From NCBI RefSeq assembly GCF_039634785.1, contig NZ_JBBIAB010000033.1, forward strand, positions 1 to 48,219: 48,219 nucleotides of DNA. Reading direction: 5' to 3'. How positions within the stretch are numbered: the first letter of the stretch is position 1; each line of letters starts with the position of its first letter. This DNA is from Tistrella mobilis. Lineage in GTDB: Bacteria > Pseudomonadota > Alphaproteobacteria > Tistrellales > Tistrellaceae. A program made the translations under genes and the position numbers. Shown here one piece after another: positions 283 through 13,970 of this stretch. The notes under the pieces are model-generated. The model saw only the letters and a program-made list of their open reading frames with translations. It had not been told where the DNA came from and did no database searches.

Positions 283-1848
283 TCAGCCCGCCCGATGCGT
301 GTCGCGCAGGGCCTTGCGGTTCAGCTTGCCGACCGCGGTTTTGGGGATCGCATCCACCACGATCACCCGGCGCGGCTTCTTATAGCCGGCGAGGCGTTCG
401 CCCGCGAAGCTGCGGAGTTCCTCGGTGAAGGCCTCGGGCTCGGCCGCGGCGCGGGCGCGGTGGTCGGGGCGGAGCGCCACCACCGCGGTCACCGCCTCGA
501 CCCATTGCGGATCGCTGAGGCCGATCACCGCGCATTCGGCGACGGCCGGATGGGCGGCCAGCACGTCTTCCACCTCGCGCGGATAGACGTTGTAGCCGCC
601 GGTGACGATCATGTCCGAGGTGCGGTCCAGAAGGTGCAGATAACCGCGGTCGCAGATCCGGCCGATATCGCGGGTGCGCATCCAGCCCTCGGGCAGCAGG
701 GTTTCGGCGTTGAGCGCCGGCGCGTCCAGATAGCCCTTCATCCGCTGGGGCGCGCGGACCGCGATCTCACCGGGTTCACCCGCCGGCACGTCCTGGCCGG
801 CGGCATCGACGATGCGGAGTTCGACATCCAGCGCCGGCCGGCCGGCGGCGCCCAGCAGCTCCGGCACATGGTCTTCGGGGCGCAGCACCGAGATGGTCAG
901 CGGGCATTCGGTCTGGCCGTAATACTGCCAGAAGCGGTGCTGCCCCCACATCGCCATCGCCCGCTCGATCACCGGCCGCGGCATGGGCGAGGCGCCGTAG
1001 ATGATCGTCTTCAGCCGGCTGTCCGCCACGGCGGCCGCCCCCGGCCGGTCGAGCAGCATGCCCAGCATGGTCGGCACCATGTTGATCGCGGTGATGCCGT
1101 CCTCGACGATCCGGGCCAGATAGGCGTCGGGTTCGAAGCCGCGCATGATCACCGTGCGGCCGCCGCGCAGCCAGAAGGGCAGAACGAACACGCCGCTCGC
1201 ATGGATCAGCGAGGCGGCATGGAGCATGGCGTCGTCGGGCCCGGCCGGCAGCAGGTTCAGCAGCACGTTGCGGCAGATCGCGGCATAGGAGGCCTGGGTG
1301 TGCTGGGCGGCCTTGAGCGTGCCGGTGGTGCCCGAGGTGAAGAGGGTCAGCACCACGTCGTCGGCTTCAACCCGGATCGCGGGCGGGGTGGTGGGCTGGT
1401 CGGCCGCGGCCGCCACGATGTCGCTGCCACCGCCCTCGGTCGTGCCAAGGCCGAGCAGGGTGAGATCAGGCAGTTCGGCGGCAAGCTCTGCTGCCCGTCC
1501 CGCGAGTTCCGGCCCGTAGACCAGGGCGCCGACCGGGGTTTCGCGCAGCATATGGGCGTGTTCGCGCAGCGACAGCCTGGAATTCAGCGGCACGCGGTCG
1601 ATGCCGGCGCGCACGCAGGCGAAATCGACCGGCACGCTCATCAGCCCGTTGTCGAGCAGCAGGGCCACGCGGGTGCGGTGCCCGAGCCCTGCGGCATGGA
1701 AGGCATTGGCGAGCCGGGCGGAGAGCTGGTCGACCTCGGTGAAGGTCAGGCTCCGGCCTTCGAACTCGATGGCGGTGCGCGGGCCGTGCCAGCGCGCACC
1801 CTGGTCGATCAGGTCGCGGTAGAGAGGTCCACAGGTGGTGGCCGACAT
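283..1848 (-). CDS. AMP-dependent acyl-CoA synthetase/ligase
   Basis: This 521-residue member of the ANL adenylate-forming superfamily would activate a carboxylic acid with ATP and join it to CoA. The family marks appear in order: the phosphate-binding loop LFTSGTTGTLKAA, the YGQTE motif, the hinge region GGYNVYPREVEDVL, and a C-terminal lysine motif PKTAVGKLNRKAL. The start at 1848 (MSATTCGPLY) is chosen over an upstream in-frame codon because the upstream residues are Arg/Pro-rich and unlike the family, and an AGGGAG box precedes it. It follows an enoyl-CoA hydratase gene with a 93-nt gap, so the two probably form one unit controlled by the divergent PaaX-like regulator. The substrate (fatty or aromatic acid) cannot be read from sequence. 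Confidence 0.88.
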   Translation of the reverse strand: MSATTCGPLYRDLIDQGARWHGPRTAIEFEGRSLTFTEVDQLSARLANAFHAAGLGHRTRVALLLDNGLMSVPVDFACVRAGIDRVPLNSRLSLREHAHMLRETPVGALVYGPELAGRAAELAAELPDLTLLGLGTTEGGGSDIVAAAADQPTTPPAIRVEADDVVLTLFTSGTTGTLKAAQHTQASYAAICRNVLLNLLPAGPDDAMLHAASLIHASGVFVLPFWLRGGRTVIMRGFEPDAYLARIVEDGITAINMVPTMLGMLLDRPGAAAVADSRLKTIIYGASPMPRPVIERAMAMWGQHRFWQYYGQTECPLTISVLRPEDHVPELLGAAGRPALDVELRIVDAAGQDVPAGEPGEIAVRAPQRMKGYLDAPALNAETLLPEGWMRTRDIGRICDRGYLHLLDRTSDMIVTGGYNVYPREVEDVLAAHPAVAECAVIGLSDPQWVEAVTAVVALRPDHRARAAAEPEAFTEELRSFAGERLAGYKKPRRVIVVDAIPKTAVGKLNRKALRDTHRAG

Positions 1849-1941
1849 CGGACGTCTGGTCTCCCTGTCACGGGGCCGCGGGCTTGGGCGCGGCCGGCAT
1901 GGTTGCATGGTTCTGCCCCGGTGAGGTCCGGGGTTCTTCCG

Positions 1942-2745
1942 TCAGTCCTCGAAACTGCCATGGCGCCCGGCCCCGGCGGCGAAACGGCCGGCCCCGGCGA
2001 TGGCTTCCTCGAACACGATCGGATAGCCGCCGGCGCCTTCGCGCGCCAACGCCTCGGCCATCGGCAGATCCCATTGGCCGATCGCCGATCGCCGGTCGGC
2101 GCGCATGCAGGCCTGCGGGAAGGCGGCAATCTGGCGGGCGAGCGCCTCTGCCGCTGCGCGGGCCTCTCCCTTCGGCACCACACGGTTGGCGAGGCCGATC
2201 GCCAGCGCCTCTGCCGCATCGACCGGGCGGCCGGTCAGGATCATGTCCATGGCCCGGCCATGGCCCACGATCCGCGGCAGGCGTACCGTGCCGCCATCGA
2301 TCAGAGGCACGCCCCAGCGGCGGCAGAACACGCCGAACACGGCATCTTCTTCGGCAACCCGCAGGTCGCACATCAGGGCCAGTTCCAGCCCGCCGGCCAC
2401 GGCATGGCCTGCAACCGCGGCGATGACCGGCTTGTCGATCACCATCCGGCTGGGCCCCATCGGCCCGGGCCCGGTGCCGGTCGGCTCCACCTCGTTGCGC
2501 AGATCCGGGTCGCCCAGGGCGCGCAGATCGGCCCCGGCGCAGAAGGTACCACCCGCCCCCCAGAGCACGATCACCCGCACATCGGGATCAGCATCGGCGG
2601 CGGCGAAGGCGGCGCGCAGCGCCTGGGCCGTGGGCCGGTCCACCGCATTGCGCCGTTCGGGGCGATCCAGGATGATGGTTGAAATCCCGGCGGCGGTTTC
2701 GACCCTGACGGGCTGGCGTTCGGACGTGGTATCATCTGGGTTCAT
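1942..2745 (-). CDS. Enoyl-CoA hydratase/isomerase (crotonase) family protein
   Basis: This 267-residue crotonase-fold protein probably hydrates a 2-enoyl-CoA during beta-oxidation-like breakdown. Visible marks are the N-terminal LDRPERRNAVD strand-turn, the first oxyanion-hole segment GTFCAGADL and the second, AGHAVAGGLELALMCD, with its glycine pair. An acidic residue follows the VFGVFCRRWGV segment. The ATG at 2745 is preferred because GGAGG lies nine bases upstream; an earlier in-frame ATG adds only Arg residues. It sits upstream of the CoA ligase gene in the same direction and is divergent from the PaaX-like gene, with 48 bp between the two starts. That spacing suggests control by that repressor through an acyl-CoA ligand. 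Confidence 0.86.
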   Translation of the reverse strand: MNPDDTTSERQPVRVETAAGISTIILDRPERRNAVDRPTAQALRAAFAAADADPDVRVIVLWGAGGTFCAGADLRALGDPDLRNEVEPTGTGPGPMGPSRMVIDKPVIAAVAGHAVAGGLELALMCDLRVAEEDAVFGVFCRRWGVPLIDGGTVRLPRIVGHGRAMDMILTGRPVDAAEALAIGLANRVVPKGEARAAAEALARQIAAFPQACMRADRRSAIGQWDLPMAEALAREGAGGYPIVFEEAIAGAGRFAAGAGRHGSFED

Positions 2746-2763
2746 CGGGCGCCTCCGTCGCAT

Positions 2764-2774
2764 CAAACCGTTTG
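2764..2774. promoter_or_regulatory. Candidate operator between the hydratase and PaaX-like genes
   Basis: The short intergenic stretch contains the palindrome caaac-c-gtttg, with 5-bp arms around one base. It lies between the two divergent start codons and could be bound by the PaaX-like protein. The site is short and no second copy was found, so this is inference from position and symmetry. Confidence 0.35.
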
Positions 2775-2793
2775 CTTCAGTCTATGGTATTTA

Positions 2794-3663
2794 ATGACGA
2801 TCGACGAAACATCGCAAGCCGACGCTTCAGTTTCCACCGAAACGGTCACGAATCCAACCCCGCCCAACGCGCGGGAGATGGTTCTGGATCTTCTGACGAC
2901 ACATGACGCCCATGAACTGCCGCTGAAGGCGCTGGTCCGGGCCGGCAATCTGTTCGGCTATACCGATCAGACGGTGCGGGTGGCGCTCAGCCGGCTGAAG
3001 GCGGACGGGGTGATCGCCTCGCCGGCGCGGGGCGTTCATGCACTGGCCGCGGCCGGCGCGCTGGTGCGCGAGGTGGAAGGCTGGCGGCGGCGGGAAGGGC
3101 GTCTGGTCGCCTGGTCCGGTGCCTGGATCGGCGTCGCCGATGCGGCGATCGACCGGACGGACCGGCCGCAGCTTCGCCGCCACGACCGCGCGCTCAGGCT
3201 GCGCGGCTTCCGGCAGCTGACCCAGGGGGTGTGGATCCGGCCCGACAATCTGGCCGGCGGCACGACGGCGCTGCGGGATGATCTGGCGCAGCTGGGTCTG
3301 GCGCCCCTCGCGACCGTGTTTCGCCTGGATGATCTGGCCCCGGAGGATGAACGTCGCGCCCGCGCCCTCTGGGATGCCGCCTCCATGGACCGGACGGAGG
3401 CCGATCTCGACCGGCTGCTGGTGCTCGGCAATGCGGCGCAGGATGCGGTGGAGCGCGGGGAAGCGGCGCCCGAGCCGGTGGCGGCGGACTCGCTCGCCAT
3501 CGGCCGCACGGTGATCCGCAATCTGGTGCGCGATCCGCTGCTGCCCGACGAACTGCGCCCGGGCGAGACGCGGCGCCGGCTGACCGAGGGCATGATCGCC
3601 TATCAGCTCCGCGCCAAGGCGCTCTGGATCCGGCTGCTCGACCAGTGGGCGGCGGGCGGCTGA
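2794..3663 (+). CDS. PaaX-family transcriptional regulator
   Basis: This 289-residue protein matches the PaaX family, whose best-known member represses phenylacetate catabolism and is released by phenylacetyl-CoA. The N-terminal winged-helix part (about residues 29-75) carries VLDLLTTHD and YTDQTVRVALSRLKADG, typical of the family. The middle and C-terminal parts contain the LRGFRQLTQGVWIRPDNL segment and a helical end. The first 28 residues are Ser/Thr-rich and not family-like. No Shine-Dalgarno sequence precedes the ATG at 2794, so the true start may differ or the message may be leaderless. It is divergent from the hydratase and CoA-ligase genes, its probable targets. Its inducer is unknown. 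Confidence 0.86.
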   Translation: MTIDETSQADASVSTETVTNPTPPNAREMVLDLLTTHDAHELPLKALVRAGNLFGYTDQTVRVALSRLKADGVIASPARGVHALAAAGALVREVEGWRRREGRLVAWSGAWIGVADAAIDRTDRPQLRRHDRALRLRGFRQLTQGVWIRPDNLAGGTTALRDDLAQLGLAPLATVFRLDDLAPEDERRARALWDAASMDRTEADLDRLLVLGNAAQDAVERGEAAPEPVAADSLAIGRTVIRNLVRDPLLPDELRPGETRRRLTEGMIAYQLRAKALWIRLLDQWAAGG

Positions 3664-3743: not shown

Positions 3744-4511
3744 TCAGCTGCCGCGAACCTCGGCCAGCATGGCCTTCGCACCGGCCATCAGCACGCCGAT
3801 ATCGACCCCGGCGGCCACGAAGCGATAGCCCCAGTCGACATAGCGCCGGGCATCGGCGGCGTTGGTCGCCAGGATGCCGGGGGCCTTGCCGGTGGCGGCG
3901 ATACGGGCGGCGGCGTCCTTCAGTGCGGCCTGCACCTCGGGATGGCCGGGCCGGCCCAGATGACCCATCGAGGCCGCGAGGTCCGAGGGGCCGATGAACA
4001 CGCCGTCGACCCCGTCGACCGCCGCGATTTCTTCCAGCCGGCCCAGCGCCTCGCCGGTTTCCACCTGAACGAGGACGCAGATCTCCCGGTTGGCGACCGC
4101 GAAGTAATCCTCGGTCTGGCCATAGCGGCTGGCGCGGGTGGCACCGGCGACGCCGCGCACGCCATGGGGCGGGTAGCGCGAGGCCAGCACGGCGGCAGCG
4201 GCTTCTTCCGCCGACTGGACGAAGGGCACCAGCAGGGTCTGGGCGCCGATGTCGAGCAGGCGCTTGATCAGCACCTTGTCGTTCCAGGCCGGGCGCACCA
4301 CCGCCGAGGCGGTGCCGGTGGCGGCCGCCTGAAGCAGCGGCTGCACGCCGGCCACATCCACCGGCGAATGCTCGCCGTCGAAAAGCAGCCAGTCGAAGCC
4401 GGCCAGCGACAGGGCTTCCGAGGCGACGGGGCTTGCCAGCGACAGCCAGAAGCCGTTCAGAACCTCACCGGCGGTAAGCCGGCGCTTGAAGTCGTTGCGG
4501 GGGGCCTTCAT
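3744..4511 (-). CDS. hpaI: 4-hydroxy-2-oxo-heptane-1,7-dioate aldolase (HpaI)
   Basis: This 255-residue class II pyruvate aldolase of the HpcH/HpaI family would split 4-hydroxy-2-oxoheptanedioate into pyruvate and succinic semialdehyde, the last step of the homoprotocatechuate meta pathway. The expected residues are present: His48 in DGEHSP, Arg73 in VVRP, and metal ligands Glu150 (VQVETG) and Asp176 (FIGPSDLA). These correspond to His45, Arg70, Glu149 and Asp175 of the E. coli enzyme as I recall it. It is the last gene of the minus-strand operon, 8 nt after hpaH, with GAGG before its ATG. A succinate-semialdehyde dehydrogenase gene nearby would handle one product. Confidence 0.92.
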   Translation of the reverse strand: MKAPRNDFKRRLTAGEVLNGFWLSLASPVASEALSLAGFDWLLFDGEHSPVDVAGVQPLLQAAATGTASAVVRPAWNDKVLIKRLLDIGAQTLLVPFVQSAEEAAAAVLASRYPPHGVRGVAGATRASRYGQTEDYFAVANREICVLVQVETGEALGRLEEIAAVDGVDGVFIGPSDLAASMGHLGRPGHPEVQAALKDAAARIAATGKAPGILATNAADARRYVDWGYRFVAAGVDIGVLMAGAKAMLAEVRGS

Positions 4512-4519
4512 CGCGCACC

Positions 4520-5302
4520 TCAGACGAACTGCACGGCGACGGCGCCGAGCGGGCCGAAATCGGCATGCAGCGTGTCGCCCTTCTTCGCCCAGACCGGCCG
4601 GGTGAAGCTGCCCGAGAGCAGCATATGGCCGGGTTCCAGCGTCACGTCGAAGGGGGCGAGCTTGTTGGCGAGCCAGGCCACCGCCATGGCCGGATGGCCG
4701 AGCACACCGGCGGCGAGGCCGGTCTCCTCGATCTCGGAATTGCGGTAGAAGATGGCGCCCACCCAGCGCAGATCGACATCGGTCGGCCGCACCGGCCGGC
4801 CGCCCAGCACCAGGCCGGCGGCAGCACCGTTATCGGCGACGGTGTCGAAGATCCGGCGCGGCTCGGTCACCCGGGCATCGATGATCTCGATTGAGGGCAC
4901 GACCCATTCGGTGGCGCGCAGCACGTCGACCAGGCCGACATTCGGGCCCTTCAGCGGTTCCTTCAGGATGAAGGTCAGCTCGGGCTCGACGCGGGGGACG
5001 CAGAAATCCTCGAACCGCACCTTGGCGCCGTCGGCGAGCACCAGATCGTCGAACATATAGCCGTAATCCGGCTCGTCGATCTTCGATGCCGCCTGCATGG
5101 CCTTGGAGGTGAGGCCGATCTTGTGGCCGATGATCTTCGCCCCGGCCTTCACCTTGGCGGCAGCCACGGCCGAGGAAATCGCATAGCTGTCGGCGATCTC
5201 GATCTCGGGGAACATCTCGGACGGGCGCTGGCCCTGCACCTTGGTGCGGTGGCTTTCAAGCAGGCTTTCGACGCAGCGTGCGCGCTGTTCTTCGGTCAGC
5301 AT
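4520..5302 (-). CDS. hpaH: 2-oxo-hept-4-ene-1,7-dioate hydratase (HpaH)
   Basis: This 260-residue protein of the FAH-like hydratase fold adds water to 2-oxo-hept-4-ene-1,7-dioate, giving the HpaI substrate. It resembles E. coli HpaH/HpcG closely over long stretches, for example HKIGLTSKAMQA, EPDYG, GLVLGGRPV and LSGSFTRPV. The predicted metal ligands Glu106, Glu108 (VPRVEPEL) and Glu139 (SIEIID) fall at the positions I recall for HpcG. It lies between hpaE (19-nt gap) and hpaI (8-nt gap) in the operon. Related hydratases of catechol pathways share the fold, but the similarity here favours HpaH itself. Confidence 0.92.
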   Translation of the reverse strand: MLTEEQRARCVESLLESHRTKVQGQRPSEMFPEIEIADSYAISSAVAAAKVKAGAKIIGHKIGLTSKAMQAASKIDEPDYGYMFDDLVLADGAKVRFEDFCVPRVEPELTFILKEPLKGPNVGLVDVLRATEWVVPSIEIIDARVTEPRRIFDTVADNGAAAGLVLGGRPVRPTDVDLRWVGAIFYRNSEIEETGLAAGVLGHPAMAVAWLANKLAPFDVTLEPGHMLLSGSFTRPVWAKKGDTLHADFGPLGAVAVQFV

Positions 5303-5321: not shown

Positions 5322-6785
5322 TCAGAGCTTGATGCAGACGTTGCGGAGTTCGGTATAGAACTCCATCGAATGGATGCCGCCCTCGCGGCCGATGCCCGAC
5401 GCCTTGGAGCCGCCGAAGGGCGTGCGCAGATCGCGCAGGAACCAGCAGTTCACCCAGGCGATGCCGACCTCGATCGCCTTGGCGGTGCGATGGGCGCGGC
5501 CGAGACTGGTGGTCCAGATCGAGGTGGCGAGGCCGTAGGGGGTGTCGTTGGCGAGCGCCAGCGCCTCCTCCTCGGTGTCGAAGGGCGTGACATGGGTGCA
5601 GGGGCCGAAGATCTCGTCGCGGACCACGGCCGCATCCTCGGGCAGGCCGGTCCAGACGGTGGGCTCCACCCAGTAGCCGCCGGCATAGCCCGCCACATCC
5701 GGCGTGCCGCCGCCGGCGATCAGCGTGGCGCCGGCCGCACGCGCCTTGTCGTAATAGGACAGCACCTTGGCGCGATGCTCGGCGCTGATCACCGGGCCCA
5801 TGGTGGTGGCGGGGTCGAAGGGGTCGCCGAAGCGGTAGCTGCGCGCCTTGGCCGCCAGCCCCTCGACGAAGCGGTCGAAGATGCCGCGCTGGACATAGAG
5901 CCGTTCGGTCCCGAGACACACCTGGCCGGTATTGGCGAAGCAGGCGCGGCCCAGGCCTTCCAGCGTCGCCTCCAGATCGGCATCGTCGAACACGATGCCG
6001 GCATTCTTGCCGCCGAGTTCCAGCGACACCGGACGGATGCCGCCGGCGGCCGCGCGCATGATCGCCTCGCCGGTCCGGGTCTCGCCGGTGAAGGTGATGC
6101 CGTCGACATCCGGATGGGTGGTCAGGAATTCACCCGCCGCCCCCGGCCCCATGCCGTGGACGACGTTGTAGACGCCGCGCGGGATGCCGACCGCATTCAT
6201 CACCTCGCCCAGCAGGGTGGCGGTGGCGGGGGTTTCTTCCGAGGGCTTCACGACCACGGTGTTGCCGCAGGCGAGTGCCGGGGCAACTTTCCAGGTCATC
6301 AGCAGCAGCGGCAGGTTCCAGGGGCAGACCACCGCGATCACGCCGCGCGGCAGGCGGAGCGCATAGTTGAGCGCGCCGGCCCCGTCCGGGGTCGCCATCT
6401 CGAAGGTTTCGGTCGAGGCGGTCAGGATCTGATCTGCGAAGACGTTGAAATTGGCCGCCCCGCGCGGAATGTCGATATGCGAGGCGATCGAGCGCGGCTT
6501 GCCGGTGTCGCGGATCTCGGCCGCCAGGAACTCGTCGAAGCGGGCGTTGATGCCGTCGGCCAGCTTGCGCAGCAGGGCGACCCGTTCGGGGATCGACATC
6601 CGGCCCCAGGGGCCCTTCAGCGCCGCCTTTGCAGCACCGACCGCCGCATCCACTTCCGCCCGGCCGGCCGCGGAGACCTCGCCGATGACTTCACCCGTGG
6701 TCGGAAAATGATTGGCGAAAGCCTCGCCGCTGCCGGCGACGAATTCGCCGTCGATGAAGTTCAGGAAACGGGTCAAGTCGGTCAT
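5322..6785 (-). CDS. hpaE: 5-carboxymethyl-2-hydroxymuconate semialdehyde dehydrogenase (HpaE-like)
   Basis: A 487-residue NAD-dependent aldehyde dehydrogenase, the same length class as HpaE. The catalytic set is complete: Asn157 (CPWNLP), Lys180 (VVVKPSEE), Glu256 (LELGGK) and nucleophile Cys290 (NTGQVCLG). In the homoprotocatechuate pathway it oxidises the ring-cleavage semialdehyde. The start at 6785 (MTDLTRFLNF) overlaps the stop of the upstream class II aldolase-like gene by four bases (ATGA), implying coupled translation. The family also includes 2-hydroxymuconic semialdehyde dehydrogenases. The HpaE choice rests on the flanking hpaH and hpaI. Confidence 0.82.
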   Translation of the reverse strand: MTDLTRFLNFIDGEFVAGSGEAFANHFPTTGEVIGEVSAAGRAEVDAAVGAAKAALKGPWGRMSIPERVALLRKLADGINARFDEFLAAEIRDTGKPRSIASHIDIPRGAANFNVFADQILTASTETFEMATPDGAGALNYALRLPRGVIAVVCPWNLPLLLMTWKVAPALACGNTVVVKPSEETPATATLLGEVMNAVGIPRGVYNVVHGMGPGAAGEFLTTHPDVDGITFTGETRTGEAIMRAAAGGIRPVSLELGGKNAGIVFDDADLEATLEGLGRACFANTGQVCLGTERLYVQRGIFDRFVEGLAAKARSYRFGDPFDPATTMGPVISAEHRAKVLSYYDKARAAGATLIAGGGTPDVAGYAGGYWVEPTVWTGLPEDAAVVRDEIFGPCTHVTPFDTEEEALALANDTPYGLATSIWTTSLGRAHRTAKAIEVGIAWVNCWFLRDLRTPFGGSKASGIGREGGIHSMEFYTELRNVCIKL

Positions 6786-7486
6786 TCCTTTCGGTCGGCC
6801 GGCGGCGTGGCGATGTCGCGCTCGGGATCGCCGTCGGTCAGGTAGTCCCACATGCGTTCGAAGATCAGGCCGGCACGGGTGGCGCGGGCGGCGGCGGCCT
6901 CGGGGCCGATCACCGGGGCGGTATCGCCGAGACCGGTGGAAAGGGCGGCAAGCTCGATCCGGCAGACGTCTTCCAGATACCAGGCAAGGCCCACGGCCTC
7001 TTCCAGGCTGGCGCCGGCGACGACCGCGCCATTGCCGCGCATCAGCACGCCGGCGCTCTCGCCCATCGCCTCGATCACGCCCGCCGCCTTCTCGTCGTCG
7101 CGGACCAGCTGGATGTCGTCCCAGAGCCCGACGCCCGGGGCGAAATAGGTGCCGAAGCCATGGCGCATGCGCGGCACCCGGCCCAGCGCCGCCAGCGCCA
7201 TCATGCTGGGCGACATGAAGCGCACCACGCCCTGCGCCTCGGGGCGCTTTGCATAAATCCGCTGGTGCAGCCGCACCTCGCCCAGCACGCCCGCCGGCAG
7301 GGGGCCATCGACCGGCACCACGGTGCAGGCCTCGCCCGGGCGCACCAGCCCCATCGGCCGCGACGGGCAGACCAGGAAGCGGTCGGCATCGATCCGCGCC
7401 GAGCAGTGGCCATAGGCATGCACCAGCCCGGCCCGTCCGAGTGCGCGGGCAGCGACCCGGACGGTTGCAGCAAGACGGTCGGTCAT
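6782..7486 (-). CDS. Class II aldolase/adducin-fold protein with altered metal site, possible decarboxylase
   Basis: This 234-residue protein has the class II aldolase/adducin fold. Family enzymes bind a divalent metal with an HxH pair and a later His. Here Glu70 (GEVRLHQ) is kept, but the HxH position reads VVRFMSPSM (Arg89 and Met91 replace the His pair) and the usual GHG reads RGNGAVV (Asn152). All three metal His are therefore missing, while the fold motifs around them stay intact. Some members of this family decarboxylate aromatic or muconate acids, so a decarboxylase role in the ring-cleavage route is possible, but this is inference. It follows the extradiol dioxygenase gene by a few bases and overlaps hpaE. 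Confidence 0.75.
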   Translation of the reverse strand: MTDRLAATVRVAARALGRAGLVHAYGHCSARIDADRFLVCPSRPMGLVRPGEACTVVPVDGPLPAGVLGEVRLHQRIYAKRPEAQGVVRFMSPSMMALAALGRVPRMRHGFGTYFAPGVGLWDDIQLVRDDEKAAGVIEAMGESAGVLMRGNGAVVAGASLEEAVGLAWYLEDVCRIELAALSTGLGDTAPVIGPEAAAARATRAGLIFERMWDYLTDGDPERDIATPPADRKE

Positions 7487-7490
7487 GATC

Positions 7491-8348
7491 TCAGTCCTTG
7501 AAGGCGGCGATGTTCGGTGCCGAACCCCACTGGCAGAAGCCCTTGGGAGCGAAATGGAACTGGCGGTCCCGCCACAGCGGCTCGTCGTGGATCTCGCAGA
7601 CCCCGGTCGAGTATTCGAAGGTCATGCCGTCGGGGCCGGCGAAATACAGGAACTGCGCCGAAGACGTCGGGTGCCGGCCGGGGCCGAAGGTCACCGTCAC
7701 CTGGTTGCGGCGCAGATGCGCCAGCGAGCGCTGGATGTCGTCGGTGCTCGCCACCTGGTGGTTGACGTGCTGGATGCCCGGCTGGTGGAAGGGGAACAGC
7801 GCCACCGAGTGATGGATGGTGCCGAAGCGCATCAGCGGCGCATCGCCGATCCGGTCCGACACCCGCGCCTTGCAGACATCGGTCCAGAACAGCTCGTCGC
7901 GCGCCGGGTCGGTGGAGCAGAGCCCGACATGGGAAAAGCCGGTGATGCCGGCATCGCGGCTGCCGTGATAGCGCTGCGCCGTGGTTTCCGGCCGGACCAC
8001 GAATTCGATGTGGTTGCCGCTCGGGTCGTCGAAGCGGATGAATTCGCGGACATGGCGGGCATCGCATTCGGCCGGGGTGCCGTAATGGACGGCATGGCCC
8101 AGATTCTCCAGCACCGCACCCGCGTTCTGGAGGTCGGCGGAGGTCGCGATCTCGAAGGCCGTCGCCTCCTGCTCGCGGCCGCCCTCGACATAGCACAGCG
8201 TGTGGGCGCGGGCGTCGGACTTGAAGTAGATCGCGCCCTTGCGGCGCTCGGCCACCTCAAGCCCCAGGATGTTGACCGCGAACCATTCGGCACCGGCCAG
8301 ATCGCGGGTGCCGAGACGGCAATAGACGACGTCCTTGAGACCGATCAC
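7491..8348 (-). CDS. Type I extradiol ring-cleavage dioxygenase (VOC family)
   Basis: A 285-residue, two-module vicinal-oxygen-chelate protein like BphC-type catechol dioxygenases. Spacing against BphC predicts a full iron site: His140 (FSHVGL), His194 (IQHVNH) and Glu245 (FEYSTG). The acid-base helpers His179 (IHHS) and Tyr235 (FLYFAG) are at the same offsets as BphC His195 and Tyr250. It should open a catechol-type ring next to its hydroxyls, using Fe(II) or Mn(II). The start is GTG at 8348, overlapping the stop of the upstream paralogue (GTGA), so the two are translationally coupled. HpaD of E. coli is of a different (LigB) fold, so this is a non-orthologous cleavage enzyme. The exact catechol is unknown. 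Confidence 0.88.
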   Translation of the reverse strand: MIGLKDVVYCRLGTRDLAGAEWFAVNILGLEVAERRKGAIYFKSDARAHTLCYVEGGREQEATAFEIATSADLQNAGAVLENLGHAVHYGTPAECDARHVREFIRFDDPSGNHIEFVVRPETTAQRYHGSRDAGITGFSHVGLCSTDPARDELFWTDVCKARVSDRIGDAPLMRFGTIHHSVALFPFHQPGIQHVNHQVASTDDIQRSLAHLRRNQVTVTFGPGRHPTSSAQFLYFAGPDGMTFEYSTGVCEIHDEPLWRDRQFHFAPKGFCQWGSAPNIAAFKD

Positions 8349-9220
8349 CTCTCATCCCTCCCCAGAAATTCGGGCGTCGTGCAGGGTGACCCCCAGGCGC
8401 AATGCGACAGGGCGGCATCGGCGAACTGGCGGGGCCCACGGCCGGTTACCGCCTCACCCCGCTCCATGCCATGGGCGTAGGAATGCAGCAGGCCGCCGGG
8501 GCCGCGGGCGGTGACGAACATGGCGCCCGAGGTCGGCTGGCGGCCGGGGCCGTGGACCACCGGTACCTGGCGGGCCTGGAACAGATACCAGCCCTGCATC
8601 ACCGCATTGATCCCGTCCACCTCCCACACCGCGCCCAGCAGGCCGTCGCGATCCGAGGGGTAGAGGGCGATGCGGTGATGGGCATCGTCGATGCGCAGGA
8701 AGACGGCATCACCCGCCCAGTCCGAGACCTCGGCGCCGATGCCGCGGGTCCAGAAATCCTCGTTCGCCGCCATGTCGGTGCAGGCAAGCTGGACCGATTG
8801 CAGACCGGTGATGCCGGCATCGCGCGTCCCGTGATAGCGCCAGCCCGAGGTGAGCGGTCGCCAGACGATCTCGACCGCCACGCCATTGGGGGCGATGACC
8901 GACAGCCCGGCCTTGATCTGCCGGGCGGCGCAGGCCGCCGCATCCAGGCGCTGCCGGGGCAGGCCGGGACAGGCGGCTTCAAGCCGCGCCTCGGCCTCGT
9001 CCAGCTCGCGGGCATGGGCGACGGTGAGCGCCACCGCGGCGGGGCCGGCCTCGGCCGTGTAGCAGATCGCATAATTGCGCGCATCCGAACGGAAGCGGCG
9101 ATTGGCATCGTCGTGATCGCCCGGCTGCAGGCCGAAAATGCCGGTGGCGAAGGCCTCGGCGCCGTCCAGATCCTCGACGGGCACCCGCAGATAGCGCAGA
9201 TCCCGGTAGATATCGGTCAT
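8345..9220 (-). CDS. Extradiol dioxygenase paralogue lacking all iron ligands (VOC pseudoenzyme)
   Basis: This 291-residue protein is a tandem paralogue of the next gene. Shared blocks include YHGTRDAGITG, EVSDWAGDAVFLRI, DDAHHRIALYP and VHGPGRQPTS. Aligned by these blocks, every metal ligand is changed: FSHVGL becomes LQSVQL, IQHVNH becomes LLGAVW, and FEYSTG becomes LHSYAH. The Tyr250 equivalent is also lost (FVTARG), while the His179 equivalent is kept. The gene is full length with no frameshift and has a good AGGAGG site ten bases before its ATG, so it is probably expressed. It may be a non-iron enzyme such as a tautomerase or a partner subunit. Function is unknown. Confidence 0.85.
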   Translation of the reverse strand: MTDIYRDLRYLRVPVEDLDGAEAFATGIFGLQPGDHDDANRRFRSDARNYAICYTAEAGPAAVALTVAHARELDEAEARLEAACPGLPRQRLDAAACAARQIKAGLSVIAPNGVAVEIVWRPLTSGWRYHGTRDAGITGLQSVQLACTDMAANEDFWTRGIGAEVSDWAGDAVFLRIDDAHHRIALYPSDRDGLLGAVWEVDGINAVMQGWYLFQARQVPVVHGPGRQPTSGAMFVTARGPGGLLHSYAHGMERGEAVTGRGPRQFADAALSHCAWGSPCTTPEFLGRDER

Positions 9221-9293: not shown

Positions 9294-10265
9294 TCAGAGG
9301 CCCGCGGCTTCCTTCTCCAGTTCCTTCAGCAGCGGGGTCTTCTCGCGCCAGGACTGGTACCAGAGGTCGACGGCGCTGCCGAAGAAGGCGCGATCGGCGT
9401 TCACCACCGGCACGCTGGTGGTCTTCAGCTTGTCGAGATAGGTGGCGTCGATCTCGGCATAGGCGCCGACGATGCCGTCCAGCTCCTCGGCCATGATCTT
9501 TTCGATCACCGCCTGATCTTCCTTGGGCACGGTCTGCCACTTGCGGCCCGAACCCACCGCGATCATCGGGAACATCATGTGGTTCGACGCCACGATGGTG
9601 CCGGCATGCTCGTAATACTTCGAGTTCCAGGTGCCCTCGAAATCGATCTGCATGCCGTCGACCTGGCCGTTGGCGAAGGCGTCATAGAGCGCCGGCAGCG
9701 GCATGGGGGTGGGGGCCGCACCCAGCCGGGTCCAGAAATCCAGCTCCTGGGCGAAGGGCACGGTGCGCACCTTCTTGCCCGACAGATCCTCGACCGAGGC
9801 CACGGGGCCGCGCATCACGATCTGCCGCATGCCGGCCATACCCCAGCCGAAGCCCTTGAGCGCGAATTTGGACACGCCGCCCAGCAGCTTCTGCGCCACG
9901 CCGCCCTTCAGGATCTGCCGCGCGCCGGCGGCATCCTTGACGATATAGGGGGCGAGGAAGACGCCGTAATCGGCATCGCGGTTGGCGAATTCACCCAGCG
10001 TCAGGAAGGCGAAGTCGAGCGCGCCGGTCTGCAGCTGCTGTAGCATCTGCGCCTCGTTGCCAAGCTGGCCCGAGGGGAAGACCAGAATCTCGACCCGGCC
10101 GTTGGTGGCTTCTTTGATGCGCTCTGCGACCGTCACCGCGCTCTTCGACCACTGATGCGGCGGCGGGGTGATCAGGCCCAGCCGATACTGTTCTGCCTGG
10201 GCCTCGGCGCCGATCAGGCCGACCATCAATGCGGCGGCGGCGGTCAGGATGCGTGCTGCTTTCAT
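9294..10265 (-). CDS. dctP: TRAP transporter periplasmic solute-binding protein (DctP family)
   Basis: This 323-residue secreted binding protein has a Sec signal peptide (about residues 1-24: Lys/Arg start, alanine-leucine core, AEAQA end). DctP-family marks follow: the YRLGLITPPPHQWSKSA start, NGRVEILVFPSGQLG, and an LSGKKVRT segment whose Arg usually grips the substrate carboxylate. It would capture an organic acid and hand it to the DctQM membrane unit. Its ATG overlaps the stop of the upstream dehydrogenase gene by four bases. Placement in the ring-cleavage operon suggests an aromatic acid ligand, which is inference. Confidence 0.92.
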   Translation of the reverse strand: MKAARILTAAAALMVGLIGAEAQAEQYRLGLITPPPHQWSKSAVTVAERIKEATNGRVEILVFPSGQLGNEAQMLQQLQTGALDFAFLTLGEFANRDADYGVFLAPYIVKDAAGARQILKGGVAQKLLGGVSKFALKGFGWGMAGMRQIVMRGPVASVEDLSGKKVRTVPFAQELDFWTRLGAAPTPMPLPALYDAFANGQVDGMQIDFEGTWNSKYYEHAGTIVASNHMMFPMIAVGSGRKWQTVPKEDQAVIEKIMAEELDGIVGAYAEIDATYLDKLKTTSVPVVNADRAFFGSAVDLWYQSWREKTPLLKELEKEAAGL

Positions 10266-11215
10266 CCCTGGTTTCCTCTCGGGGTCTCGTTATGGGGGGT
10301 GGCTTCCTTCTTGGAGAGGAAGACCATGAGGTTGGTCAGGCCGGCATCGCGGCTGGCGGCGATCTCGGCCACCGGCCGCGGATCCGCCTCGGCCATGCCG
10401 GAGACGAGGCGGGCGCGGGTGGCGGCGTCCAGGCGCGGTGCGCCCAGCGTCGCCCACCAGCGTTCGAATTCGGGGCCGAGGGCGTCGACGAAACGCCCGA
10501 TGCCGCCCTCGGCACCCGCCAGATGGAAGACGGTGGAGGGGCCGACGATGCACCAGCGCGGCGCCAGACCCTGGATCACCGCCTGTTCGATATCGGCGAG
10601 GCTGGCGATGCCCTCGCTCGCCAGATGCACCGCCTCGCGCCAGAGCGCGGCCTGCAGGCGGTTGACCAGATGGCCGGGCACCGGCCGGGTCAGCGTCAGC
10701 ACCGTCTTGCCCATCGCCCGGAAGAGGTCGGCGGCGCGCGCCACCATTTCGGGCGCGGTCAGCGTGCCGCCCGACAGCTCCACCACCGGCATCAGATAGG
10801 GCGGGTTGCAGGGATGGGCGATCAGCAGGCGCTCCGGCCGGGCCAGCCCGTCGGCCATGTCGTCGGGCGACAGGCCCGACGAGGACGAGGCGATGATGCT
10901 GTCCGGGGCCAGATGCGGTTCCAGCGCCGCCAGCGCCCGGCGCTTCAGATCGAGCTTTTCGGGCAGGTTCTCCTGCACCAGCACCGGCGGCGGGCCGGCC
11001 TCGGCCGCGGTCGCGACATGGGCCGGCGCGGTCGCCCGCGGGCTGAGCGTGCCCAGGCCCTGCAGCACCGGCAATGCCTGCGCCTGGACGGTGGCGATGC
11101 GATCGGCCACCGCCGGATCGGGGTCGATCACGGTCACGTCATGGCCGGCGCCGGCGAAGGCGGCGGCCCAGCCGCAACCGATCAGTCCGCCACCCAGAAT
11201 CCAGATGCGTGCCAT
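10262..11215 (-). CDS. 3-hydroxyacyl-CoA dehydrogenase-like NAD-dependent oxidoreductase
   Basis: A 317-residue protein with an N-terminal Rossmann domain (GGGLIGCGWA, residues 8-17) and a dimer domain of the 3-hydroxyacyl-CoA dehydrogenase superfamily. The catalytic His lies in LIAHPCNPPYLMPVVE, the usual HxxNPP motif with a Cys before the Asn. Single-domain relatives include L-carnitine dehydrogenase, L-gulonate dehydrogenase and 3-hydroxybutyryl-CoA dehydrogenases. The NPPYLMPVVE ending is nearer to the carnitine and gulonate type, so a free hydroxy acid may be the substrate. The gene is wedged between the TRAP membrane and binding-protein genes, overlapping both (TGATG and ATGA). It probably oxidises a side-chain hydroxyl of the imported compound, which is inference. 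Confidence 0.82.
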   Translation of the reverse strand: MARIWILGGGLIGCGWAAAFAGAGHDVTVIDPDPAVADRIATVQAQALPVLQGLGTLSPRATAPAHVATAAEAGPPPVLVQENLPEKLDLKRRALAALEPHLAPDSIIASSSSGLSPDDMADGLARPERLLIAHPCNPPYLMPVVELSGGTLTAPEMVARAADLFRAMGKTVLTLTRPVPGHLVNRLQAALWREAVHLASEGIASLADIEQAVIQGLAPRWCIVGPSTVFHLAGAEGGIGRFVDALGPEFERWWATLGAPRLDAATRARLVSGMAEADPRPVAEIAASRDAGLTNLMVFLSKKEATPHNETPRGNQG

Positions 11216-12486
11216 CAGAGCAGATCCTTAAGGCCGGTGGAGAGAACGGGGAAGACGACCAGCAGCAACAGGACCGACAGCACCGCGAAGAAGAACGGCA
11301 TCAGCAGCACCGCCAGACGTTCGGCCTTCACCTTGCCCATCAGCGAGGCGACGAACAGCCCTGTGCCGACCGGTGGTGTCAGCAGACCCAGTGTCAGGTT
11401 CAGGCAGAGCACGACGCCGAAATGGAAGGGATCGATGCCGTAGACGCCTGTGGCGACCGGCAGGAAGACCGGCACGATCAGGATGATGGCGGGGATCGGG
11501 TCGCTGATCATGCCCAGCACCAGCAGCAGCACGTTCAGCATCAGCAGGAAGACGATCGGCGAAGCGGTCATCGCCTGCATGGTCTCCGCCACCAGGGCCG
11601 GCAGGTTTTCGAAGGTGATGACCCAGCTGAACACCTGGGCGGCGGCGATCAGGAACAGCACGGTCGCCGAGCCGCGCGCGGCATTCAGGAAGGCGGGGAG
11701 GATGTCGGCCAGCGTCATCTCGCGATAGACGAACAGGCCGATCAGCACCGCGGCGAGGCTGGCGATCGCGGCCGATTCGGTGGGGGTGGCAAGGCCGCCC
11801 AGGATCGAGCCGACGATGATCACCGGAATGGCGGCCGCCGGCAGGGCATCGAGCACGGCGCGGAAGCGGGCGCGGATCGGCATCGCCTCGGTCTTGGGAA
11901 AGCCGTGGCGGCGGCCCAGCCACATGATCACGCCGATGAAGGCGAGGAAGATCAGCAGGCCCGGCACGATGCCCGAGATGAACAGGTCGCCGATCGGGAT
12001 CTGTGCGATCACGCCGAAGATGATGAACAGCATCGAGGGCGGGATGATCGGCGCCAGCAGGCCGCCGGCGGCGGTGATCGCCACCGACACGTCGCGCGGA
12101 TAGCCGGCCTTTTCCATCTCGGGCACCGCCAGCCGCGACATGATGGTGATCTGCGCCACCGTCGAGCCCAGGATCGCCGCCATCATCATATTGGCGACCA
12201 GGTTGACATAGGCGAGCCCGCCGCGGATCGAGCCCAGCATGGCCAGCGCCAGCGCCATCAGCCGTCGGCCGATGCCGCCGGCATTCATGAACTCACCCAG
12301 CAGGATGAACAGCGGCAGGGCGAGCAGGCCGTAATTCTCCAGCCCCCCGAACATCTGCTGGCCATAGGACTGGAGCAGGATCAGGTTGCCGGTGGCGAAG
12401 ATGTAGATCAGGCCGAGGGCGGCGAGCGCGAAGGCGATCGGCATGCCGACCGCCAGCATGGCGAGGAATGAGACGCCCGCGATCAT
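11215..12486 (-). CDS. dctM: TRAP transporter large permease (DctM family)
   Basis: This 423-residue integral membrane protein has about a dozen hydrophobic helices and is the Na+-coupled transport unit of a TRAP system. DctM-family segments are GMPIAFALAALGLIY at the N-terminus, LFILLGEFMNAGGIGRRL, the VANMMMAAILGSTVAQI region, PPSMLFIIFGV and TPPVGTGLFV near the end. The ATG at 12486 overlaps the dctQ stop codon by four bases; a much longer open frame upstream is only an antisense-like read-through of dctQ in another frame. Its own stop overlaps the next start as TGATG. Confidence 0.93.
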   Translation of the reverse strand: MIAGVSFLAMLAVGMPIAFALAALGLIYIFATGNLILLQSYGQQMFGGLENYGLLALPLFILLGEFMNAGGIGRRLMALALAMLGSIRGGLAYVNLVANMMMAAILGSTVAQITIMSRLAVPEMEKAGYPRDVSVAITAAGGLLAPIIPPSMLFIIFGVIAQIPIGDLFISGIVPGLLIFLAFIGVIMWLGRRHGFPKTEAMPIRARFRAVLDALPAAAIPVIIVGSILGGLATPTESAAIASLAAVLIGLFVYREMTLADILPAFLNAARGSATVLFLIAAAQVFSWVITFENLPALVAETMQAMTASPIVFLLMLNVLLLVLGMISDPIPAIILIVPVFLPVATGVYGIDPFHFGVVLCLNLTLGLLTPPVGTGLFVASLMGKVKAERLAVLLMPFFFAVLSVLLLLVVFPVLSTGLKDLL

Positions 12487-13100
12487 GCCGCCATTTCCTC
12501 CCCGCCGGTCAGGCGGCCGGCGAGCGAGGCCAGCACATGGATGGTGGCGGTGACGCAGAAGACCGGCATCACCAGCCAGAACCAGACCTTGTGCATGCCC
12601 AGCGTCACGGTCGGCTCCTGATAGATGAAGTTGAAGGTCGAGGCGGTGAAATCCTCGATCGAGGCGGCCTGCAGCACGCCCACCGGATCGAACCAGCGCC
12701 AGATCTGCACCGAAAGCACGGCCAGGAAGACCAGCAGCGCCACATCCACCAGGATCGCGAGCCGGCGCCGCGCGGCGGGCCTGAGCGCATCCGGCAGCAG
12801 GGTGATCGCAATGTGCTGGCGCCGCGCGAGACCGAGCGAGGCGCCGATGAAGGCCGCCCAGGCCATCAGGAACACGGCCAGTTCGTCGGTCCAGATCAGC
12901 GGATTGCCCAGGCTGCGCGAGACGACGTTGCCGAGCAGCAGGCAGAAGATGCCGAACACCGTCAGCCCCGCCGCCCAGGCTTCGACCCCGGCGATGCGGT
13001 TGCTGAGTGTCTGCAGGCAGGCGACCGGACCAGGGACGCCGCGGGTGCCGGTGTGCAGCGGGGACTGCGACGCGCCGGCCTCTTCGAGGATTTTTGTCAT
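12483..13100 (-). CDS. dctQ: TRAP transporter small permease (DctQ family)
   Basis: This 205-residue protein has four predicted membrane helices (about residues 37-60, 70-92, 113-132 and 168-190), the DctQ layout. The family mark is NPLIWTDELAVFLMAWAAFI, followed by LARRQHIAITLLPD. It joins DctM in the membrane. It is the first gene of the ten-gene operon, with GGGAGG upstream of the ATG at 13100. Its promoter region carries palindromes likely bound by the divergent GntR protein. The first ~30 residues are polar and cytoplasmic. Confidence 0.9.
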   Translation of the reverse strand: MTKILEEAGASQSPLHTGTRGVPGPVACLQTLSNRIAGVEAWAAGLTVFGIFCLLLGNVVSRSLGNPLIWTDELAVFLMAWAAFIGASLGLARRQHIAITLLPDALRPAARRRLAILVDVALLVFLAVLSVQIWRWFDPVGVLQAASIEDFTASTFNFIYQEPTVTLGMHKVWFWLVMPVFCVTATIHVLASLAGRLTGGEEMAA

Positions 13101-13120: not shown

Positions 13121-13168
13121 ATAAAATATCGATATTTTGAGCGTGTCAATTTGGAAATTGATATTTTC
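13121..13168 (-). promoter_or_regulatory. TRAP/hpa operon promoter overlapped by palindromic GntR operators
   Basis: On the minus strand TTGACA (13144-13149) is followed 17 nt later by TTTTAT (13121-13126), a good vegetative-type promoter for dctQ. A perfect 16-bp palindrome, aaaatatcgatatttt (13123-13138), covers the spacer and -10. A second, caattt-gg-aaattg (13147-13160), overlaps the -35. An imperfect copy of the first is centred about 13161, three helical turns away. Binding of the divergent GntR/FCD protein here would block the operon. On the plus strand TTGATA (13158-13163) may serve gntR. Promoter strength and protein assignment are inference. Confidence 0.6.
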
Positions 13169-13223
13169 GGGCAGCCGAACTAGCCTGCCTCTGATTTCAA
13201 TCTCGCCGGGAAACCGACACCGC

Positions 13224-13970
13224 ATGGACAAGCGATCGCCCGTCCGCCCGGATAGCCCCGCCCGACCGGATATTGAAGACAAGACCCAGGCCGAACGCGC
13301 CTACCGCCTGATGCGCGAGGACATCGTCACCGGGGCGCTGCCGCCCGATCTGAAGCTCAAGATCGAGATGCTGCGCGACCGCTATCAGATCGGGGCGGGG
13401 CCGCTGCGCGAGGCGCTGGCCCGGCTGTCGGGGGAATATCTGGTGCAGATGCAGGGCCAGCGCGGCTTCGTGGTGGCGCCGATGTCGGCGACCGATGCCC
13501 GCGAGATCGGCCATCTGCGCAAGATCTTCGAAGCCGATGCCCTGGCCCAGTCCATCCCGGCCGGCGATGTCGCCTGGGAAGAGCGGGTCATCACCACCTA
13601 TCACCGCCTGGAGCGGCTGGAACTGGCCGACCGCCAGGGCGTCGAGCAGATGTCGGAATGGGAACGGCTGAACCACGATTTCCACGAGGCGCTGGTCTCG
13701 GCCTGCGCCTCGACCTGGCTTCTGCGCATGCGGGCGATGATGTTCCGCCATCATGAACGCTATCGCCGCCTGTCGCGCGCCAAGACCGTGATGACCCGCG
13801 ACATCCATCTGGAACATCGCGCCCTGCTGGATGCCGCACTCGACCGCAATGTCGACCGCGCGGCCGAGGTGATCCGCCGCCATATCGAACACACCACCGG
13901 CGCCGTGGTGGCGGCGCTGGCCCGGGATCCGGCCGTGGACGCGCCTGCGCAGGCGACCGGCACCGACTGA
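13224..13970 (+). CDS. GntR-family regulator with FCD domain
   Basis: This 248-residue repressor-type protein has an N-terminal winged helix (about residues 22-85; AYRLMREDIVTGALPPDLKL, then GPLREALARLSGEYLV) and a C-terminal all-helical FCD ligand domain. The FCD domain keeps metal/ligand His positions in LNHDFHEAL, LEHRALLDAA and RRHIEH. Such proteins usually sense an organic acid from the pathway they control. The ATG at 13224 is chosen as the first codon fitting the domain; an in-frame upstream start at 13137 would lie inside the operator. It is divergent from the TRAP/hpa operon, its most likely target, and is followed by a strong terminator. Confidence 0.9.
   Translation: MDKRSPVRPDSPARPDIEDKTQAERAYRLMREDIVTGALPPDLKLKIEMLRDRYQIGAGPLREALARLSGEYLVQMQGQRGFVVAPMSATDAREIGHLRKIFEADALAQSIPAGDVAWEERVITTYHRLERLELADRQGVEQMSEWERLNHDFHEALVSACASTWLLRMRAMMFRHHERYRRLSRAKTVMTRDIHLEHRALLDAALDRNVDRAAEVIRRHIEHTTGAVVAALARDPAVDAPAQATGTD

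Follow-up and report, generated by a model that had tools for sequence, protein, structure and literature searches.

The locus and its paired genes

The window, i.e., the whole stretch of 48,219 nucleotides from Tistrella mobilis that was analysed, carries on its minus strand two overlapping genes of the extradiol dioxygenase type. The gene transcribed first (9220 to 8345) encodes P0003, a ligand-less type I extradiol dioxygenase paralogue of 291 aa, and the gene transcribed second (8348 to 7491) encodes P0002, an intact type I extradiol dioxygenase of 285 aa. Both starts are preceded by a Shine–Dalgarno sequence of the GGAGG type, AGGAGG ahead of 9220 for P0003 and GGGGAGGG ahead of 8348 for P0002, and the two genes are coupled by a stop/start overlap of four bases, GTGA, at 8345..8348 of the minus strand. 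The window compares with a gene of the Tistrella mobilis plasmid pTM2 at 98% protein identity, and its intact gene is identical in sequence to the intact gene of T. mobilis.

Transcription of the minus strand starts near a divergent GntR-type regulator (13137..13970, plus strand) and runs from TRAP transporter genes through the pair into catabolic genes. The order, all on the minus strand, is a DctQ-like small membrane subunit (12483..13100), a DctM-like large membrane subunit (11215..12480), a 3-hydroxyacyl-CoA dehydrogenase-like protein (10262..11215), the solute-binding protein DctP (9294..10265), P0003, P0002, a class II aldolase/adducin-family protein (6782..7486), a 2-hydroxymuconic semialdehyde dehydrogenase (5322..6785), an HpaH-like hydratase (4520..5302) and an HpaI-like aldolase (3744..4511). 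DctP matches PF03480 and lies above the cut-off of NF037995. The names GntR, DctM, DctQ, PaaX, acyl-CoA synthetase and enoyl-CoA hydratase were assigned to neighbours in the window by eye, and same-place relatives of the regulator and of the DctM-like protein were found by BLAST. The 3-hydroxyacyl-CoA dehydrogenase-like gene is present in all 10 context loci in which DctQ, DctM and DctP adjoin the pair.

On the catabolic side, the 2-hydroxymuconic semialdehyde dehydrogenase passes TIGR03216 (825.5 bits; cut-off 693.25), the HpaH-like hydratase lies slightly below the cut-off of TIGR02312 (349.2 vs. 351.5 bits), and the HpaI-like aldolase scores 335.7 bits with TIGR02311, the cut-off of which is 368.8. 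The open reading frame of the dehydrogenase also offers an earlier start at 6851; the start at 6785 was chosen by eye. The class II aldolase/adducin-family protein reaches 51.1 bits with the PhtC model, which has a cut-off of 200, and is a non-member by that test; by analogy with DhbB, as described in PMC6362003, it is likely a decarboxylase of a carboxylated ring-fission product of the DhbB/CmtD/PhtC kind. A candidate CHMS decarboxylase and a TIGR03216-passing HMS dehydrogenase thus lie downstream of the pair, which is the make-up of a DhbA/OpaC-like operon.

A type I fold without its metal site

Alignment with 3b59 and HsaC places the metal site of P0002 at H140, H194 and E245, a 2-His-1-Glu site of the type I kind, with H179/H180, H226 and Y235 as further site residues (H180, H226 and Y235 in the second sphere). 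Judged from its sequence, P0002 belongs to the type I (vicinal oxygen chelate, VOC) extradiol dioxygenases and is predicted to be ring-cleaving. In an alignment of 82 rows, all 250 residues or longer, 34 rows are ligand-less and 48 are intact (the two proteins of the window included, three fragments dropped); H/H/E is invariant in 48/48 of the related intact rows, a group which is itself defined by these residues. Modelling of the P0002 structure gave a poor result (pLDDT 66.7), and the geometry of the site therefore rests on the sequence alignment. A profile search of the same genome with the HsaC model, made for an outgroup, matched only P0002.

P0003 is 37% identical to P0002 over 279 aligned columns (E 3e-51), and both proteins match the Pfam families Glyoxalase and BphC_D1, i.e., VOC/glyoxalase families. 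At the ligand columns, P0003 has S142 for H140, G196 for H194 and S247 for E245, and in the second sphere it has Q228 for H226 and T237 for Y235, with H181/H182 and S231 retained. Its structure model, built on 11 sequences (pLDDT 84.1, pTM 0.86), shows the two-domain VOC fold, and the first 15 matches of this model among known structures are all type I-like dioxygenases (Z 31.5–32.6, rmsd 2.1–2.5, 266–279 residues). The type I extradiol dioxygenases 5znh (Z 32.6) and 3b59 (Z 32.1) match it end to end, and 3b59 is also its top Foldseek match. This Mn(II)-bound glyoxalase/dioxygenase from Novosphingobium aromaticivorans, for which we know of no reported partner, is the best sequence match of both P0002 and P0003, and it ranks first (E 2e-30) against a profile of the ligand-less family. 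Unlike P0003, however, 3b59 has all three ligands (H, H and E); these residues face the lost columns of the family profile, and the same columns stand opposite them when P0003 alone is aligned. Since the model matches type I enzymes end to end and the profile columns face H, H and E of 3b59, the type I fold is present in P0003 and the metal site is absent. With BphC models, the strongest stretch pairs the C-terminal domain of P0003 with the ligand-less N-terminal part of BphC.

No 2-His-1-Glu site was found in P0003, and in the 34 ligand-less rows no substitute His, Glu or Asp is conserved three residues or fewer from a ligand column. A hidden metal site was considered and rejected, the nearest acidic or His residues lying at +2 from H194 in 38% of the rows and at −1 from H140 in 29%.

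The loss can be followed column by column (in P0002 numbering). Fifty columns are invariant in the 48 intact rows, and ten of these (H140, L172, Q193, H194, Q198, H226, Y235, E245, S247 and V250) are lost in every one of the 34 ligand-less rows; with columns taken as independent, the hypergeometric probability that the three ligands fall among the lost ones is 0.006. On this estimate, the joint loss of all three ligands is more than chance. No case of partial loss occurs among the 82 rows or 8 further proteins. Columns kept in 34/34 ligand-less rows include H179, H180, S229 and C272 as well as the non-ligand residues R131, W155, D165 and W274, and R262 is kept in 97%; H179–H180, GPG and S229 do not vary in the intact enzymes either. 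At the ligand positions themselves, the E245 column holds small residues throughout (S, G, T or A, 34/34) and the H140 column A, S, G or C in 33/34 with D in one, while the H194 column holds A, G, E, S, Y or N. The H226 column has turned to R, Q, E, N or A, and the Y235 column to T, H, S, R, V, L and others.

An earlier note on this DNA had described a tandem pair at 7491–8348 and 8345–9220, one member of which keeps H140, H194, E245, H179 and Y235 and the other of which has lost the whole iron site and the Tyr, with an intact frame, a ribosome-binding site and translational coupling. The coordinates are correct, and the minus strand is added here; the alignment bears out the residues of P0002, and S142/G196/S247 and T237 the loss in P0003, with the refinement that H179–H180 is kept. 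The open frame, the AGGAGG and the 4-base overlap are likewise as described. The same note proposed alignment to type I enzymes as a test of the loss, and that alignment brought out no other conserved His, Glu or Asp at the metal site of P0003.

Distribution, pairing and selection

At E 1e-25, P0003 was searched against 385 class and 398 phylum genomes, and at 1e-20 against 3 genomes of the family; an 11-sequence profile of the ligand-less type was run at E 1e-40 in the families around the matches (198, 14, 198, 199 and 7 genomes), together with a scan of genome contigs and plasmid records. The ligand-less type is uncommon, a member being found in at least 6/385 class genomes and 5/398 phylum genomes, the window's own being counted in both. 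The survey as a whole gave 37 ligand-less loci, all in Alphaproteobacteria and one of them on a conjugative plasmid; given the E limits and the sampled genomes, all these counts are lower bounds. Three of the 37 are later finds (genomes G1623 and G1625 and a Pseudosulfitobacter plasmid). Outside the Alphaproteobacteria, the profile (E 1e-40) was run against 321 genomes of the class of G639, where the sole match was the intact gene of G639. None of the 37 loci keeps any of the three ligands (0/37), and the frames are open in all of them; an apparent internal stop in the G378 copy was discarded, as the TGA is the gene's own end and a later profile match at the same place has no inner stop. Besides the named genomes, conservation of the pair spans 19 genus and 6 family codes.

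P0003 matched 44 plasmid records, four of which were taken up: a Tistrella plasmid (H1, already counted), a Cupriavidus plasmid (H2) and a Caballeronia plasmid (H3) with one intact gene each, and a Pseudosulfitobacter plasmid (H4) with the pair. The remaining 40, including 37 more from Pseudosulfitobacter and two from Paraburkholderia, stand outside the count. On the conjugative plasmid of Pseudosulfitobacter pseudonitzschiae, an S/S/S gene adjoins an H/H/E gene.

In 36/37 ligand-less loci (the window, 32 context loci, G1623, G1625 and the Pseudosulfitobacter plasmid), an H/H/E dioxygenase lies directly downstream on the same strand. Counted in bases, the intergenic gap in the 32 context loci is −4 in 14 loci, −8 in 2, between 7 and 43 in a further 14, and 228 in one, the last being the second pair of G1213, whose partner gene is broken by a run of N with its ligands kept. 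The exception is G1208, in which the ligand-less gene is followed by a damaged dioxygenase that matches in part only; another contig of that genome carries an intact dioxygenase with no ligand-less neighbour in the stretch examined. No natural gene fusion of the P0003–P0002 type was seen among the loci examined.

In the unrooted 82-row tree, a single branch (SH-aLRT 99) separates the 34 ligand-less rows from all the intact ones, and a 41-row tree gives the same split between intact and ligand-less sequences with support 100/100. The intact rows with His197 form a group of 34 (support 85), 33 of which, all but G639, cluster at 99, and each of these 33 genes adjoins a ligand-less gene, except that of G1208. 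His197 by itself is no mark of pairing, since intact H197-type genes without a ligand-less neighbour occur in G639 and on the Cupriavidus and Caballeronia plasmids. No ligand-less-type partner accompanies the 14 intact rows of the sister clade. Nor does tandem duplication alone bring ligand loss, since the tandem intact paralogues of three genomes of family f102 (G208, G297 and G375) both keep H/H/E.

The distances among 32 ligand-less proteins correlate with those among their partners (r = 0.88; 0/2000 permutations as high), and in 23/32 the nearest relative is the same pair. Because linked genes share their history, such matching distances mean joint inheritance and are no proof of contact. 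Sequence change is about 1.8 times faster in the ligand-less set than among the partners. Across 11 comparisons of related pairs, dN/dS was 0.057 to 0.346 for the ligand-less gene and 0 to 0.159 for the partner, with looser selection on the former in 10/11; these values come from a simple counting method, with some synonymous distances near saturation and some genomes reused. By this measure, the ligand-less gene is under purifying selection.

The gene surroundings fall into five settings. The first, shared by the window and 10/32 context loci and including Paracoccus haematequi, combines TRAP genes, the 3-hydroxyacyl-CoA dehydrogenase-like gene, class II aldolase, semialdehyde dehydrogenase, HpaH and HpaI. 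The second has a Rieske ring-hydroxylating dioxygenase, a diol dehydrogenase-like SDR, a ferredoxin reductase and an amidohydrolase (G265, G169, G551, G865 and others), and the third lacks the TRAP genes but has the class II aldolase and the semialdehyde dehydrogenase (G654, G678, G1062, G1250 and G1174). In the fourth, that of the Pseudosulfitobacter plasmid, ABC transporter genes lie upstream and an amidohydrolase downstream of the pair. The fifth comprises eight genomes of family f171, some with the pair on short contigs, in which no such catabolic set lies near the pair and genes close by encode a molybdopterin oxidoreductase, a UbiD-type decarboxylase or other proteins. Since the pair is the constant element while the transporter, the decarboxylase and the downstream genes change, P0003 appears to go with the dioxygenase and not with any single later step.

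Known relatives and the role of the ligand-less protein

The 2,3-dihydroxybenzoate 3,4-dioxygenases DhbA and OpaC are type I enzymes like P0002, and, according to PMC6362003, OpaC has 285 aa and both keep the same company as P0002, namely a DhbB- or OpaD-type decarboxylase and a 2-hydroxymuconic semialdehyde dehydrogenase. By length and gene context, P0002 may be called DhbA/OpaC-like. In the same source, DhbB (a class II aldolase) and OpaD (of the amidohydrolase type) both decarboxylate the product that the type I enzymes DhbA and OpaC form by ring fission of 2,3-dihydroxybenzoate. Because the class II aldolase and amidohydrolase neighbours of the pairs resemble DhbB and OpaD, the substrate of the pair is likely 2,3-dihydroxybenzoate or a similar 3-carboxycatechol.

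In contrast to the P0002/P0003 pair, OpaC and DhbA appear without a partner in PMC6362003, and Table 1 of that paper has no second ring-cleavage dioxygenase among the opa genes. For the cmt genes, which include the type I 2,3-dihydroxy-p-cumate 3,4-dioxygenase CmtC/PsbC2, no second ring-cleavage dioxygenase is named in the passages of PMC5224996 consulted. The name PsbC2, which occurs in PMC6362003, suggests that a psbC1 exists. The psbC1/psbC2 naming in R. palustris might thus be an earlier sighting of such a pair. For the p-cumate genes of R. palustris, PMC5224996 cites Puskas et al. 2000.

The closest parallel in design comes from 2-aminophenol 1,6-dioxygenase of Micromonospora, in which, according to PMC10470539, the iron site lies in the beta subunit, alpha and beta co-purify as a heterotetramer, and neither subunit is soluble alone; amnB and amnA adjoin, as stated in PMC3790839. 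AmnA/AmnB, an extradiol dioxygenase encoded by two adjacent genes with iron in one subunit (beta), thus resemble the arrangement proposed for our pair. They differ in being type II enzymes of the LigB superfamily, whereas P0002 and P0003 are of the VOC/glyoxalase kind and show no LigB fold, and likening P0003 to a type II alpha subunit is therefore a likeness of design, not of homology or membership. Type II thus has known two-subunit extradiol dioxygenases in which one subunit carries the iron. For type I, no description of a pair with a ligand-less partner was found by title or opening of the abstract among the open-access papers listed, which is weak evidence of novelty.

We favour, with moderate confidence, the reading that P0002 as catalytic subunit and P0003 as iron-less homologous subunit form one ring-cleavage enzyme for a 2,3-dihydroxybenzoate-type substrate. 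P0003, translated first and coupled to P0002 via the overlap, would be delivered in step with it and is predicted to assemble with it as a homologous, metal-free subunit, the physical complex and its stoichiometry both being predictions. P0002 would perform the ring cleavage, and P0003, with neither iron nor chemistry of its own, may give the complex stability, shielding or regulation. In favour of this reading are the complete ligand loss, the purifying selection, the single branch, the nearly invariable pairing and gene order, the kept non-ligand residues and the type II parallel; against it speak the relatives that manage without a partner (OpaC, DhbA, the sister clade, and the genes of G639 and of the Cupriavidus and Caballeronia plasmids) and the arrangement in G1208. 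A more tentative proposal, to which we give somewhat less than an even chance, is that these pairs are obligate two-component enzymes and form a hitherto undescribed class among the type I extradiol dioxygenases. The dead VOC subunit would then complete the active site of the catalytic one or control it, as a convergent counterpart of the alpha subunit of type II aminophenol dioxygenase.

The retention of H181–H182 in all 34 rows could reflect a pocket function still in use instead of a purely structural P0003; together with the small residues that replace the first and third ligands, it leaves room for a ligand-binding or catalytic role. P0003 might accordingly be a separate metal-free enzyme, i.e., an isomerase, tautomerase or decarboxylase acting on the ring-fission product with H181–H182 as acid/base, an idea which would fit the H179–H180 and S229 columns kept in 34/34 rows despite the lost metal site. 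The window has no match to the tautomerase family PF01361, which is also in favour of this idea, although contigs C6 and C17 of the same genome carry three such matches between them. The familiar 4-oxalocrotonate tautomerase has a small beta-alpha-beta subunit with a catalytic Pro1, whereas P0003 begins MTD, has 291 aa and adopts the VOC fold. We consider a separate enzyme unlikely: the pocket columns vary widely among the ligand-less rows, unlike those of a shared new active site, the ligand-less gene stays while the downstream pathways differ between settings, and H179–H180, GPG and S229 may be structural, being as invariant in the intact enzymes. Thus, of the roles offered in the earlier note, a dedicated pseudoenzyme partner agrees with our preferred reading, whereas the example of a tautomerase fares poorly, since the gene tracks the dioxygenase while the downstream enzymes differ.

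It is distinctly improbable that P0003 is instead a ligand-sensing regulator or subunit, which would bind the catechol or the ring-fission product uncleaved and tune the activity of P0002. The small residues at E245 (34/34) and H140 (33/34) could leave an open cavity for such a ligand, and the fold of the model is complete, but the larger E, Y and N also occur at H194 and several pocket columns are unconserved among the ligand-less rows. Extradiol dioxygenases lose activity through oxidation of their iron, and P0003, being upstream and translationally coupled, might be a helper for the folding, iron loading or oxidative recovery of P0002 that forms no stable subunit; we think this very unlikely, as no His, Glu or Asp is conserved near the lost ligands and an enzyme homologue would be an unusual chaperone. 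A decaying duplicate, to which the roughly 1.8-fold faster evolution might point, is hardly credible given dN/dS of 0.06–0.35, open frames in 37 loci and constant order across genera. Selection rather than decay was also the view of the earlier note, with which the 19 genus and 6 family codes agree, and the search of related genomes that it had set as a test found the ligand-less gene carried intact.

Iron-dependent oxygen chemistry has standard models in the type I extradiol dioxygenases, which to our knowledge are treated as homo-oligomers. If the two-subunit reading is true, a conserved dead partner would make part of the type I family heteromeric, and the active gene expressed alone, as is usual in screens, could yield an inactive or unstable enzyme. 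The pairs also offer a natural test case for selection on pseudoenzymes, with complete ligand loss, 37 divergent loci, a nearly fixed partner and partnerless relatives as control. What began as one odd gene has thus widened to a conserved class of enzyme/pseudoenzyme pairs.

The C-terminal domain of the ligand-less paralogue

The C-terminal domain of P0003, the ligand-less type I extradiol dioxygenase paralogue encoded at 8345-9220, matches the ligand-less N-terminal part of BphC models. The PF22632 match covers residues 145-188, and positions 1-74 of TIGR03213 match residues 137-209. On these profile matches, the domain looks as if it were a second N-terminal-like domain.

Position 197, tandem copies and irregular loci

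Among the 82 aligned proteins, the paired group comprises 33 intact rows, all with a His three residues past the second ligand (position 197 in the numbering of P0002, the intact H/H/E dioxygenase encoded at 7491-8348), and Phe occupies this position in the 14 rows of the sister clade. Position 197 is likewise His in G639, Cupriavidus and Caballeronia, whose genes are unpaired. Three further genomes, G208, G297 and G375 (loci L033, L034 and L035), carry tandem dioxygenases of the same wider group with H/H/E in both members; they are duplications without ligand loss and provide a useful contrast to the ligand-less pairs.

Two genomes have irregular loci. In G1208 (L132, L133), the ligand-less gene adjoins a dioxygenase with only a partial match, and a second, intact dioxygenase stands alone on a different contig; this split arrangement is either an assembly error or a real rearrangement. 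G1213 (L120, L121) holds two ligand-less/intact pairs within a single genome, with a run of N inside one of the two intact partners.

Genes around the pair

The meta-cleavage operon of the window includes a 3-hydroxyacyl-CoA dehydrogenase-like protein (10262-11215), which scored under the cut-off for each NCBIfam model among the best 25 of 27. Each of the 10 context loci having the TRAP transporter genes DctQ, DctM and DctP beside the pair carries such a gene. At 283-3663 the operon is flanked by genes for an acyl-CoA synthetase and an enoyl-CoA hydratase, together with a divergent regulator of PaaX-like type, all named by eye; close relatives occupy the same place in the Tistrella loci only, among the loci compared.

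A pair on a conjugative plasmid

The pair is also present, as S/S/S plus H/H/E, on plasmid P1 of Pseudosulfitobacter pseudonitzschiae (NZ_CP087074.1; L136, 2989-4730), where both members are annotated merely as VOC family protein. A plasmid record search returned P0003 matches in 38 Pseudosulfitobacter records, with the pair itself verified in one of the 38. Plasmid P1 was typed as conjugative, and conjugation may be a route by which the ligand-less/intact pair spreads.
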